Source: Rheinheimera texasensis DSM 17496 (GTDB lineage: Bacteria; Pseudomonadota; Gammaproteobacteria; Enterobacterales; Alteromonadaceae). Taken from it: a stretch of DNA of 64,000 bases. The position numbers and the translations under genes were made by a program. The DNA is taken from positions 62,001 to 126,000 of the forward strand of contig NZ_KL544006.1 of assembly GCF_000711985.1 (NCBI RefSeq), in the 5' to 3' direction. Positions 3,879-62,386 of the stretch are shown here, piece after piece. Every line of letters starts with the position of its first letter. Within the stretch, counting starts at the first letter, position 1. Below the pieces are notes generated by a model. That model was not told the DNA's origin. It saw nothing but the letters and a program-made list of their open reading frames with translations, and made no database searches.

Positions 3879-3905
3879 CTCTCCTTATAAACAAAATAAG
3901 CAGAG
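3879..3905 (-). promoter_or_regulatory. Predicted Shine-Dalgarno-sequestering hairpin of lysC
   Basis: Read on the minus strand, CTCT-G-CTTAT pairs with ATAAG-G-AGAG around a seven-base loop: nine base pairs and one G.G mismatch. The 3' arm contains the lysC AAGGAG ribosome binding site, so this hairpin would block initiation at TTG 3873. Inferred to be the expression platform of the riboswitch. Confidence 0.55.
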
Positions 3906-3984
3906 CATGGCATTTGCAGAGCAACAATCAGATACAACAAACCCCGGACGCCAGAGCGCGGTGTTGTTGTCTACTTGCAGACAC

Positions 3985-4165
3985 AACAAAGGCCAGAAGC
4001 TCTCCACCGAAGTTTCAGGTGACAGTCGCAGGGATTCAGCCCTGACAACCGAAAAACCAGCTGCTATGACAGGTTTTCCTCGGCGTTCATCCCCCTCCTT
4101 CAGTCTGCGGTGTATAGCCACCTGAACTGAATTACCTGGTGAACGCTCCTCTTCTGGTCTATCAG
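3985..4165 (-). ncRNA. Lysine riboswitch (L box) upstream of lysC
   Basis: Read on the minus strand, the leader carries the landmarks of the E. coli lysC L box in order: CCAGAAGAGGAGCGTTC, then GGAGGGGGATGAACGCCGAGG, then CAGGGCTGAATCCCTG followed by ACTGTCACCTGAA. The closing helix P1 pairs CCAGAAG (complement of 4151-4157) with CTTCTGG (complement of 3993-3999). Lysine binding should reduce lysC expression. No poly-U terminator is obvious between aptamer and gene, so control is more likely at translation initiation. Confidence 0.9.
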
Positions 4166-4311
4166 AATGATTGACGCCGCTACCTTACCTTGGTTGCGCT
4201 AAAAAGGCAACAGCCTTTTAGACGTCTGTAATAAAATTACAGGAAAAGCTAAGTTTCCCTGGGTAGCACTGAGACAGCTCATGGTCTGCTGCAGTCTTTG
4301 CGGCAGATAGC

Positions 4312-4341
4312 AAAAAAAAAACGGCGCCACAGCGCCGTTTT
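4312..4341 (-). terminator. Intrinsic terminator of nhaD
   Basis: ACGGCGC-CACA-GCGCCGT forms a seven-base-pair GC-rich stem. On the minus strand it is followed by ten T residues, directly after the nhaD stop codon. Confidence 0.9.
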
Positions 4342-4356
4342 CTGAGTCAAAAGTTA

Positions 4357-5601
4357 TCAGCTGGCAAACTGGCCAAACAGATACACACCGGCATAACCTA
4401 AGCTGTAACAGAACAACAGGTAACCACCCATTTTCAGATAAGTACCAAAGGTCAGTTCCTTTAATTTGCTCATGGCAATAATGCCTGCAGCAGAACCGAT
4501 AATCAGCAAAGAGCCACCGACACCAGTCGCATAAGTCAGCAGCAACCATTCACCCGGCGTCATCACCAAATCTGCTTTGAGCAATGCAGCGGTCAGCGGT
4601 ACGTTATCAATCAAAGCTGACGACAAGCCCATCAGATAATTGGCCTGCAGCGGTGGCAACATGGCATATAAATCAGTGAAATTCTTCAGGAAATTCACTT
4701 CTTTTAATACACCAACCAACAACAGCACACCTAAGAAAAACAACAGCGTCTCAAATTCAACTTCCCGCACGTAGTTAATCACGCTTTGCGCAGCTTTATT
4801 GCGCATCAGGAACTGTGCGATCAGGAACATCACGGCGAGGCCAAATAAAAAGGTTAATACCGGCGGAATGGCGTACAACACGTTTAGCAGCAAAGTGCCG
4901 GTGATGGTCAGGACAAAAATGCCTGCCACCGTAATATCGGTTTTGGCGATCGGCTTTTTGCTTTTCTCTACGACCAGCTGTTGATCCAGTCCACGCGACA
5001 AAAACAGCGCCAGCACAGCCACAGAGAAAAATGCCGGCACGACTAACAGCAGCAAATTGGCGATCGTCACTTTATCCGCCAGGAAGAACATCAGCGTCGT
5101 CACATCACCGGTGATCAGCGACACTCCACCACTGTTGACCGCGAAAATAATTAATGTGCCGTAGCGGATTTTTTTCGCCGCTTCCAGCTTTACACTGGAG
5201 ATCACCGCGATGGATACCAGCGTGGCCGTGACGTTGTCGGCAAAAGACGAAAACACAAAAGCAAAACTAGCGACGATAAACATCAGTTTTCGCTCGGACA
5301 GCTGCGACGGCAGCGCACGTTGTACGATTTGGGCGATAAAACCTTTGCTGTTTAAATAGGCGACAAAAGTCATAGTTGACATTAAAAATAGCCACAAGGT
5401 GGCGATTTCTAACAAATTGTGTTCCAGCTGATGCTGAACATGCTCGCGGGAGGCATCACCTTCTGCAAAAATAAACAATAAAATCCAGCAAAGAGTACCG
5501 AAAAAAAGTGTCGTTTTTGCCTTGTTTACGTGGATAATATCCTCTATAACGATCAGCACAAAGGCAAGTGCGACCAAGCCCAGTAAAATACCCGTTAGCA
5601 T
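4357..5601 (-). CDS. nhaD: NhaD-type sodium:proton antiporter
   Basis: A 414-residue inner-membrane protein of the ion transporter superfamily that exchanges Na+ (or Li+) for H+, typical of marine and alkali-tolerant Gammaproteobacteria. About a dozen hydrophobic helices are visible, with the conserved elements FADNVTATL near residue 120, AVNSGGVSLITGDVTTLM near 165 and SALIDNVPLTAALLKAD near 330; the D/N residues in these repeats are the expected ion-translocating positions. It is transcribed alone, divergent from mksF, with its own terminator. E. coli has no close homologue, so this points to a Vibrio/Alteromonadales-type sodium economy. Confidence 0.93.
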   Translation of the reverse strand: MLTGILLGLVALAFVLIVIEDIIHVNKAKTTLFFGTLCWILLFIFAEGDASREHVQHQLEHNLLEIATLWLFLMSTMTFVAYLNSKGFIAQIVQRALPSQLSERKLMFIVASFAFVFSSFADNVTATLVSIAVISSVKLEAAKKIRYGTLIIFAVNSGGVSLITGDVTTLMFFLADKVTIANLLLLVVPAFFSVAVLALFLSRGLDQQLVVEKSKKPIAKTDITVAGIFVLTITGTLLLNVLYAIPPVLTFLFGLAVMFLIAQFLMRNKAAQSVINYVREVEFETLLFFLGVLLLVGVLKEVNFLKNFTDLYAMLPPLQANYLMGLSSALIDNVPLTAALLKADLVMTPGEWLLLTYATGVGGSLLIIGSAAGIIAMSKLKELTFGTYLKMGGYLLFCYSLGYAGVYLFGQFAS

Positions 5602-5651
5602 AAATGATCACCCGCAATTATTAATAAATTATGAAATATTGTCGGGGCGGC

Positions 5652-56050: not shown

Positions 56051-56197
56051 CACTGTCGTTTTGGACGCACGGCGACGCTGCGCTTGCCGTGCCTACTACT
56101 TCATCACGCCGCACATTTTCGCTACTTTCACTACATTTGCGCGCCGGCCGTTCAACCGCTATGCTGCGGCGGTTTTTCGGTTTGTCAGGAATTCGGC

Positions 56198-57085
56198 ATG
56201 CGTTTACTCTGGCTGGTGACAGCTATCTGGGCCTTTAGTTTTTCCTTGATCGGTGAGTTTCTCGCTGCAACGGTCGACCCTTATTTAGCGGTCAGCAGCC
56301 GGATGTTGCTGGCGCTGTTGTTATTCAGCCCGTTTTTACTGAAATACCGCACGGCACCAAAACTGGCGCTGCAACTTGCCGGCATTGGTGCAGTGCAGCT
56401 TGGCCTGATGTATTTGCTGCTATATCACAGTTTTTTGTATTTAAGCGTGGCGGAGGTGTTGTTATTCACCATTCTGACGCCGGTGTATATCTCAATACTG
56501 GACTATTACTGGCGCTTCAAAAAGTTGCATTGGCGCTGGCTGGGTCCGGCGCTCTTGGCCGTCGCTGGCGCACTGGTGATGCGCTACCAGCAACTAAGCA
56601 GTGATTTCCGGCTTGGGCTGTTGCTCATACAAGGCGCGAATCTGTGTTTTGCCTTTGGTCAGGTCGCCTACCGCCGACTGGCTGTAGGCAATGTTGGTTC
56701 ACAAAAACAACACTTCGGTTGGTTTTTTGTCGGGGCTACTATCGTCAGCCTGTTCGCCACAGCCCTATTCGCCAACTGGCAGCGCCAACCCGATACCCCG
56801 CTTGAATATGGCATTTTGCTGTGGCTGGGTCTCGTCGCTTCAGGCCTTGGTTATTGGCTGTGGAACGCCGGCGCGCGGCAGGTCAGTGCCAACCAGCTGG
56901 CCGTGATGAACAATGTGCTGATCCCGGCCGGCCTGCTGGTGAATTTTGTGTTCTGGCAACATGCAGTGAATTGGTGGACCTTTTCGACCGGTTCCGGCTT
57001 GATCATGCTGTCGCTGTGGCTCGCGGCCAGCACAAATCAAGACAATCATGCGAACAAAACTGCCGCCACTAACACTGCTGACTGA
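56198..57085 (+). CDS. EamA/DMT family transporter
   Basis: A 295-residue inner-membrane protein with ten predicted helices in two EamA halves (about 1-135 and 145-285). Typical elements are LLWLVTAIWAFSFSLIGEFLA at the N-terminus (split), LFTILTPVYISILDY and the second-half GLVASGLGYWLWNAGARQVSANQLAVMNN. Family members export amino acids or metabolites, but the substrate cannot be inferred. ATG 56198 has CAGGA eight bases upstream; the open frame extends upstream to 56084 without hydrophobic or family content. Confidence 0.87.
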   Translation: MRLLWLVTAIWAFSFSLIGEFLAATVDPYLAVSSRMLLALLLFSPFLLKYRTAPKLALQLAGIGAVQLGLMYLLLYHSFLYLSVAEVLLFTILTPVYISILDYYWRFKKLHWRWLGPALLAVAGALVMRYQQLSSDFRLGLLLIQGANLCFAFGQVAYRRLAVGNVGSQKQHFGWFFVGATIVSLFATALFANWQRQPDTPLEYGILLWLGLVASGLGYWLWNAGARQVSANQLAVMNNVLIPAGLLVNFVFWQHAVNWWTFSTGSGLIMLSLWLAASTNQDNHANKTAATNTAD

Positions 57086-57156: not shown

Positions 57157-57597
57157 ATGAAAAAAAGCCTGCTCAGCATTTTATGCTGCTGTTCCTTTGC
57201 CATTGCTGCGACCGAACTGACCGGTGTGCGTTGGACCTATTTGTCTGAACTCGACATGATGGGGATGAAACTGGCAATGAAGCCAGTGACTCAATGTGAG
57301 ACCGCTCAGGTGAGTCCAACACCGCCGATGGATGGTGACTGTCGTTACGAGCAGATAACGACTTCAGGAAATACCACGAAGTTTGAATTTGTCTGTGTCG
57401 GCGAGGATGCCGCAAAGGGAACTGGCCAGTTTACGACCACAGAAAACAGTCGTACCGGCAGCTACAGTCTGGAAACAGCAGACGGAAGCGGTACTGTCAC
57501 GATCCAAGCGACCAAAGGTCCGTCTTGTGACCCGGCCGAAGGCACCACCATCGACGGACAATCCGTTGAAGCCATGAAAAAGCGCGGTCAACAGTAA
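57157..57597 (+). CDS. Secreted DUF3617 family protein
   Basis: A 146-residue periplasmic protein with signal peptide MKKSLLSILCCCSFAIA. The mature part fits DUF3617: a tryptophan-led first strand (GVRWTYLSELDMMGMKLAMK), TQCETAQ, DCRYEQITTSGNTTKFEFVC and GTGQFTTTENSRTGSYSL, with four conserved cysteines likely paired. Function unknown. ATG 57157 follows AGGAAATCTCAG. The next gene starts only 23 bases downstream with its own good ribosome site, so both form one operon. Confidence 0.82.
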   Translation: MKKSLLSILCCCSFAIAATELTGVRWTYLSELDMMGMKLAMKPVTQCETAQVSPTPPMDGDCRYEQITTSGNTTKFEFVCVGEDAAKGTGQFTTTENSRTGSYSLETADGSGTVTIQATKGPSCDPAEGTTIDGQSVEAMKKRGQQ

Positions 57598-57620
57598 TCA
57601 GCAACGTGCATGGAGGCGAA

Positions 57621-59723
57621 ATGCAAACACGATCCAACCCGCTCTGGTTGCTTTTGGTGCTGGCATCTTTGTCGGTTTAGGCCCAGCAAACACCGCCATT
57701 GAGTGCTGAAGAGCTCAAAGAAATGCAGCAAGGGATGCAGGATGCACAGCAGATCCTGAACAATCTTGACCCTGCCGCCAAAGCCCAACTTGAGCAGATG
57801 ATGCAAGCTGTGCCAAAAACACCGGCAGCCTCTGTACACAGCACACCAGCTGATAAAAGCTCGTCACTGGCTGCGATTAATACTAACCCGATGACAGGCA
57901 ACGAGCTAAAAGCTTATTTGACCAAGCTTAGCGCCAGTATTCCAGCGGCACTCGCCGCTCCGAGCCGTCAACGACTACAAACACTACAGGCTCTACTAAC
58001 GAACACCTCGCAACGACGAGCGGCCGCACAAACGCTTGCGACCATTGGAGCCTGGGAAGAAGCGACAGCACTTCAGGCGGAAGTTGCCCTCGCCAGTGGC
58101 GGGGCGCAGGATATCAGTAATCTGGCTGCTTTTCTGGTAATGCAACAAGCAGAGCCCGCTGCACTGCCTCTGCTACATACCTTAAATGCCCGCTACCCGA
58201 ATAATTCAACTATCCTGAACAATCTGGGTCAGGCCTACTATCAGGCTGGCGATACCAAGCAGGCAAAAACATTTCTGCTGGCCGCCCTCCATCGTAGCCC
58301 TACCCATCCACAAGCCAATATGACACGTTCTATCCAACAATTGGCAGAGGGCGATGAAGCCGGTGCGCAGCAATCAGCCAGAGTTGCGCTCCGGCACGGC
58401 TACAGCAACAGTAAAACTGAACAGCTACGCAGGTCAGGCGGCAAGCCGGATGCGCAGGATGTGCGCTGGTCCAGACCACGGTCTCAGCATAGCTTCCGGC
58501 TCGATGCTGCCACCCCCACTTTGTACCCGGAAGATGTTGAAGCTCTGCCGGAACTCTTTGCAAAAACTAAACAGCTGCGTGACGAACGCGCAAAGCAGCG
58601 GCAACAACTGGCACAACGCGCAAGCGCAATTCCACCGCCTACTATGGCTGATTTGCAGCAAATCAGCCGGATGCCCTTTTCAGCGCAAGCTGAGTTGCTG
58701 AGCCAGGGTGAGACCGAACTGCTGAAGCGTCAGCTCGACGATGGGGAGCAACAACTGGCTGCTGTGCTGCGTCAAGTAGGCGCTTCTGCGCAGCAACTGA
58801 GTGAACAAATTGCTGCAATAGACCGGGCTGGTGAGAAAAAATATCAGAGTATCCCGGGCGGCTATCAGTTTAATTACAGCTGTAAGGAAGTGAAAGCGGC
58901 CATCAGTGGCTTTCTGAGTGCACATTTGCATGCGTATCGCGCCGCGGAGATAAAGCTCTCCGATCTGCAAATCCAGCAGGCCCGCCAACAAATCAACATA
59001 GCGCAGTACCGGATGACAGATCACGAACTGCAGAGAACGCAACTGATGCTGCAAGCTGGTTTAATTCGGGATCCAGATGGTGCGCGTGGGCTGAGCAATG
59101 CAGTCTCAGGTGTGGTAGAGCAACGACAGTTAGCCTGCTGGCCAAAAACCGAGGCAAAAAACACCGATGAGAAACCATTTAGCCTCAGCGACTACGAGGA
59201 TACCCATTGCGAAGAGGCGGGTCGTTTCGGTCTGCCCGGTTTCGCGCTAATGACCATTCACTGCAATAAAGTCACCTATGAATTTGAACCTGCATTGATG
59301 CCGGTATCCGCCAGATGGACCAGCCGGGATACCGGCCGGGGCGGCGAAACAGCGTTGGTACAGGCAACTGCTGCTATTAGTATCGATGGTGTCACAGTTT
59401 CAGGCCACAGCGAGTTTGCCGAAGACGGCTGGAGCAGCGGTGGGATCAGTGTGAGTGGTGGTACCGGCGTCAGCGAAGGCCGTGGGCCGCTGGAAATCGG
59501 CGTAGGTGTTGAAGTCAGCGGTACTGTGGAATTTGACCGCAGTGGTGTGACTGATGTCCGCGTCGATGCTGAAGGAAGCATCAAGGCCAGCGGCACCGCA
59601 GTAAAAACAGACGCTGTCGAAGCTGGGAAAGCTTCACTGGAGACCTCAAGCAGCAGTAGTTGGAGCTGGAATGCAGGTTATAGCGGCGACAGCGGCAGTA
59701 GTCTCAGTGGCGCTGTGCTGTAA
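57621..59723 (+). pseudogene. Secreted TPR/coiled-coil protein gene interrupted by an amber codon in the signal peptide
   Basis: ATG 57621, five bases after GGAGG, reads a signal peptide MQTRSNPLWLLLVLASLSV, then TAG at 57678-57680, then AQQTPPLSAEELKEM and 674 further open codons to TAA 59723. The amber codon is at position -2 of a V-x-A cleavage site, so the intact gene would make about 700 residues. The body has an N-terminal helical region, TPR-like repeats (about 175-260, ILNNLGQAYYQAGDTKQAKTF in part), a long coiled-coil (about 330-500) and a Gly/Ser-rich beta-repeat C-terminus (ISVSGGTGVSEG, VEVSGTVEFD). Family unknown. A TTG at 57699 could start a signal-less protein. Recent nonsense mutation, stop-codon suppression or sequencing error are all possible. 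Confidence 0.8.
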
Positions 59724-59730
59724 ACAAAAA

Positions 59731-59755
59731 AACGCCGGCTGCTGCCGGCGTTTTC
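59731..59755. terminator. Bidirectional intrinsic terminator between the TPR gene and katG
   Basis: AACGCCGGC-TGCT-GCCGGCGTT followed by TT, with an A run on the 5' side. It ends the DUF3617/TPR operon on the plus strand and katG on the minus strand. Confidence 0.88.

Positions 59756-59773: not shown

Positions 59774-62386
<2,613 letters not shown>

Follow-up and report, generated by a model that had tools for sequence, protein, structure and literature searches.

Belinky et al. 2021 (PMC7918605) reported bacterial genes that are intact but for a single in-frame stop codon, including TAG set against CAG in relatives, and argued that many such stops can for short times be tolerated or read through. 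The window, which is the whole 64,000-nucleotide stretch of Rheinheimera texasensis DNA that was analysed, contains a gene for a probably exported TPR protein with one such TAG inside its signal peptide. We conclude that this is quite probably a recent nonsense allele, an ordinary inactivation by which the exported protein has been lost in the strain.

The features of the locus are collected in Table 1. The ribosome-binding site of the TPR gene is strong, and its pairing at ATG 57621 (-9.3 kcal/mol) falls between the values that delimit the best 1% (-9.6) and the best 5% (-7.1) of 2000 random positions. From this ATG the segment ahead of the TAG reads MQTRSNPLWLLLVLASLSV, and after the TAG the protein continues as A↓QQTPPLSAEELKEM, where the arrow denotes the apparent cleavage point. 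The TAG thereby occupies position -2 of an apparent V-x-A↓Q site, whose -3 and -1 positions were placed by eye and by the usual -3/-1 rule. Downstream, the frame stays open for 680 sense codons up to the TAA at 59721-59723, and neither a second stop nor a frameshift was found among them; the lesion leaves 19 residues out of 700 codons. The first-pass annotation had described a GGAGG and ATG opening a signal peptide, an amber codon at its -2 position and a downstream frame free of further decay, all of which is borne out by the translation. The frame is open to its end as that annotation stated, but the 674 codons it gave are those counted from TTG 57699, and the true count after the TAG is 680.

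Table 1. Features of the TPR gene and its surroundings in the window
Feature	Coordinates	Strand	Basis
EamA-family transporter, left neighbour	56084..57085	+	PF00892; 90% identity with a protein from Rheinheimera tilapiae, 82% of the query aligned
DUF3617 protein gene, intact, 23 nt before ATG 57621	57157..57597	+	PF12276, 3.7e-6, 28.2 bits against a cut-off of 24.5
Shine-Dalgarno GGAGG	57612..57616	+	Direct reading; pairing -9.3 kcal/mol
Signal-peptide coding segment, codons 1-21	57621..57683	+	Translation; N-termini of relatives match; cleavage site by eye
In-frame TAG, codon 20, -2 of the apparent cleavage site	57678..57680	+	Translation; Gln in P0001
Mature part, TPR / long-helix / C-terminal beta-strand protein	57681..59723	+	680 codons, closed by TAA
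GC-rich hairpin where the TPR gene and katG converge	59733..59750		Direct reading; missing from the terminator scan
katG catalase-peroxidase, right neighbour	59774..61987	-	TIGR00198, 1234 bits

Homologues of the TPR protein numbered 42, and 28 of them (P0001-P0028) were aligned. The nearest, P0001, carries the source tag 'lgn', which we take to mean Logan assemblies of public reads; it is 700 aa long, 98% identical to the window protein, and has a glutamine at codon 20. The comparison with related sequence that the first-pass annotation had proposed for this codon therefore returns a sense codon. The match to P0001 extends on both sides of codon 20, and in a genome-wide profile search the match likewise runs across the stop (E 1.9e-263, with '1 TAG' inside), so that chance does not explain the continuity of the two sides of the TAG. 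P0001 and the window protein differ at 14 of 700 positions, codons 2 and 20 included; 12 of the differences lie among the 680 mature residues. When these 12 were judged against the 27 other relatives, the window residue was the commoner at five and the P0001 residue at two, with five uninformative, and this polarisation of aligned residues gives no indication of relaxed constraint downstream of the TAG. Such lack of decay fits a very young lesion, and equally a maintained protein. A hydrophobic N-terminal segment is present in 26 of the 28 aligned relatives, and for this reason a genuine signal peptide is the best reading of the segment ahead of the TAG; P0013 and P0021 begin only where the mature protein does, perhaps because of how their start codons were called. 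The reading under which relatives would begin without a signal peptide, named by the first-pass annotation as fatal to its own proposal, thus fails.

The mature part has a Pfam TPR_19 match (1.4e-7), and its AF2 model (mean pLDDT 73.5) contains a TPR fold, identified by structural matches that cover mainly residues 92-266; fold and profile agree in assigning it as a TPR protein. PDB sequences were matched through TPR stretches only (14 sequences, mostly designed TPR proteins), and NCBIfam returned only a match below cut-off (20 bits against 150). The C-terminal beta repeats noticed earlier hold in part: beta strands are modelled at mature residues 514-677, with moderate confidence up to about residue 590 and poor confidence beyond, where block means fall to 29-42 across residues 631-680. 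In 21 of the 29 rows of alignment A1 a terminal Phe stands behind predicted beta strands, and the window protein ends in leucine. A terminal Phe in this position is reminiscent of the beta-signals, or insertion signals, of outer-membrane proteins; because the model is poor at the C-terminus, a beta-signal here is only a lead.

The DUF3617 and TPR genes form a pair between EamA and katG. The hairpin that separates the pair from katG is preceded by an A-run and followed by a T-run, and is probably a two-way terminator. DUF3617 also lies near the TPR gene in six of ten proteobacterial loci (L135, L138, L139, L141, L142 and L144), five of which had served to train the search model. These loci span Gamma- and Betaproteobacteria and resemble the window in that both families lie close together in each, but the gene order is swapped in five of the six. 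Unlike in the window, the DUF3617 gene is located directly downstream in L138, L139, L142 and L144, and in L141 it is further downstream, in the open frame 3888-5606; L135 is the only locus that shares the gene order of the window. The two proteins may constitute a functional pair of exported proteins. The literature searched contained nothing naming DUF3617, either alone or with tetratricopeptide, and the recurrent neighbourhood of DUF3617 and a TPR / long-helix / beta-strand protein is a useful by-product of the analysis. In L142 (3613-5824) and L144 (3307-5576) two overlapping frames take the place of one continuous TPR frame, and these splits are either frameshift lesions or metagenome assembly errors.

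The full-length TPR gene was present in one of 22 genomes of the genus, the window's own, and was not found in the 21 other sampled congeners, which makes it an accessory gene. A class-wide profile search (E <=1e-20, at most three candidates scored per genome) likewise placed it, among the matches listed, in one of 369 genomes, again the window's own. Protein searches across the family gave a match in 25 of 395 genomes, those outside the window's own genome being short TPR matches of 18-28 bits. A scan of genome contigs yielded 27 loci with the alignment as query and nothing with the nearest protein as query. As for a compensating paralogue, the own genome showed one match only. When 6 kb of DNA was searched against the 21 other genus genomes, which is also the sole way in which DUF3617 was sought in congeners, the neighbours were found, and of the pair nothing more than a few final bases by the terminator. 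Genome G010 has EamA and katG in the same order without the pair, and the pair is an accessory module at a variable insertion spot. Between EamA and katG, G010 carries a gene for a PA14/PEP-CTERM protein (L133, 2477-3055, reverse strand). Codon usage among 46 open reading frames, hand-picked as likely genes from the 88 listed, ranks DUF3617 lowest and the TPR gene eighth lowest.

Of the options listed in the first-pass annotation, recent inactivation is favoured by an intact P0001 with glutamine at codon 20 and by the lack of any suppressor tRNA among those found. Under this reading the TAG would have arisen by a single substitution, which accounts for it without any special mechanism. Translation would initiate normally at ATG 57621 and end after 19 signal-peptide residues, and the exported protein would not be made; at most, traces would come from weak internal restart or background misreading, with restart products devoid of a signal peptide. 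Loss of the TPR gene, as part of the accessory pair, would be tolerated, given that sampled congeners do without it. An intact homologue has a sense codon at the position, and the lesion removes an essential part of the product, as in a young nonsense pseudogene. With a strong start, weak restarts and no means of suppression, loss of the exported protein is the best reading. If neutrality is assumed, the absence of second lesions bounds the divergence at about 1.3% or less (with indels at 10% of substitutions and 80% of them damaging), or at about 4% or less when only stops are counted, a limit too loose to decide. Estimating the age from the divergence of neighbouring proteins (TPR 98%, DUF3617 93%, EamA at most 91% identity) was rejected, as each hit stands for a 90% cluster and the hits perhaps come from different strains.

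Among the alternatives, an error in the consensus or in sequencing survives best, although it is unlikely. The organism would then have a sense codon and make the protein normally, in keeping with the intact appearance of the rest of the gene and with the sense codon in P0001, the nearest relative. Set against this is the quality of the 4.59 Mb assembly (12 contigs, completeness 100, contamination 0); isolated substitution errors are uncommon in assemblies of such quality.

Leaky or functional readthrough, in which near-cognate tRNAs would misread the TAG, a little exported protein would be made and the gene would be kept, is rated as improbable. Position -2 of a cleavage site accepts many residues, and the undecayed downstream frame would also be in line with continued use. 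For bacteria, Belinky et al. describe in-frame TAG/CAG differences that are under purifying selection (PMC7918605). Against readthrough stand an intact release factor 1 (566.7 bits against a cut-off of 423.25), no second lineage seen with the TAG, and the ordinary use of TAG for termination in the window, where it closes six of the 46 likely genes, with the next stop lying 10-100 codons further; termination at TAG was accordingly found to be neither weak, absent nor avoided. A tRNA with a CTA anticodon was not found either. An Rfam tRNA search with ARAGORN typing gave 56 typed tRNA genes with 32 anticodons, none of them CTA. This census scored 150 of 173 first-look candidates, and as tRNA-Ile(GAT), tRNA-Ala(TGC) and tRNA-Val(TAC) are missing among the 56, some tRNA loci must be missing from it. 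A CTA-loop pattern run over the whole genome produced 27 matches, as compared to 61 for a reversed control pattern, and ARAGORN typed none as a CTA tRNA; only one of the 27 loci (L079) contains tRNA genes at all, and there the match falls in a tRNA-Arg(TCT). A suppressor tRNA was therefore rejected within the incomplete census, and the natural suppression that the first-pass annotation had offered as an option, together with the amber suppressor search it had recommended, found no backing; suppression of the TAG is not supported. The genome has two tRNA-Trp(CCA) genes, at C1:1280 and C5:1062644 of G000, with C1 being a small contig of 16.8 kb. A variant of readthrough in which the TAG at -2 acts as a throttle, such that trace export by misreading would lower the dose of TPR protein relative to the intact DUF3617 protein and the allele would be kept as useful, is more improbable still. 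Were the TAG read through and selected, it would offer a well-placed natural case in which to test stop codons as regulators of dose.

Least probable, and by our estimate very much so, is a restart of translation downstream of the TAG that would give a cytoplasmic version of the protein. TTG, ATG and GTG codons do occur in frame within 60 codons past the TAG, but pairing is weak at TTG 57699 (-2.0 kcal/mol), ATG 57723 (-2.1) and ATG 57735 (-0.9), for a random median of -2.6, and the best candidate, GTG 57810 (-6.0), is only near the 10% quantile of random positions (-6.1). The hydrophobic N-terminus of most aligned relatives also speaks against a cytoplasmic protein. Repeat-driven phase variation, put forward earlier as a phase-like loss of export, was rejected, as 57560-57760 contains two 8-nt direct repeats only and no inverted repeat, hence nothing suitable to slip or invert at the lesion, no runs of 1-3-base units (which the repeat tool leaves out) were seen by eye at the TAG, and a substitution explains it.

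Young nonsense pseudogenes of accessory genes are ordinary. The recent nonsense allele described here shares with them a single lesion, absence of the gene in sampled congeners and no sign of compensation, and only the position of the stop inside a signal peptide is distinctive. It illustrates cleanly the loss of an accessory exported protein via one codon, and as it stands it matters little. With suppressor-tRNA or pyrrolysine-type amber decoding the locus has in common an internal TAG with a conserved frame behind it, but here a CTA tRNA was not found in the incomplete census and TAG is a normal terminator. The full-length gene occurs in the own genome only among 22 of the genus, and the one close relative lacks the stop. 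The window case is a further instance of the known single in-frame stops: as in the Belinky et al. case, a single in-frame TAG stands against Gln in a related copy and the downstream frame is intact, but their example comprises eight TAG and ten CAG genomes with dN and dS measured, and the TAG in the window is represented by one genome (PMC7918605).
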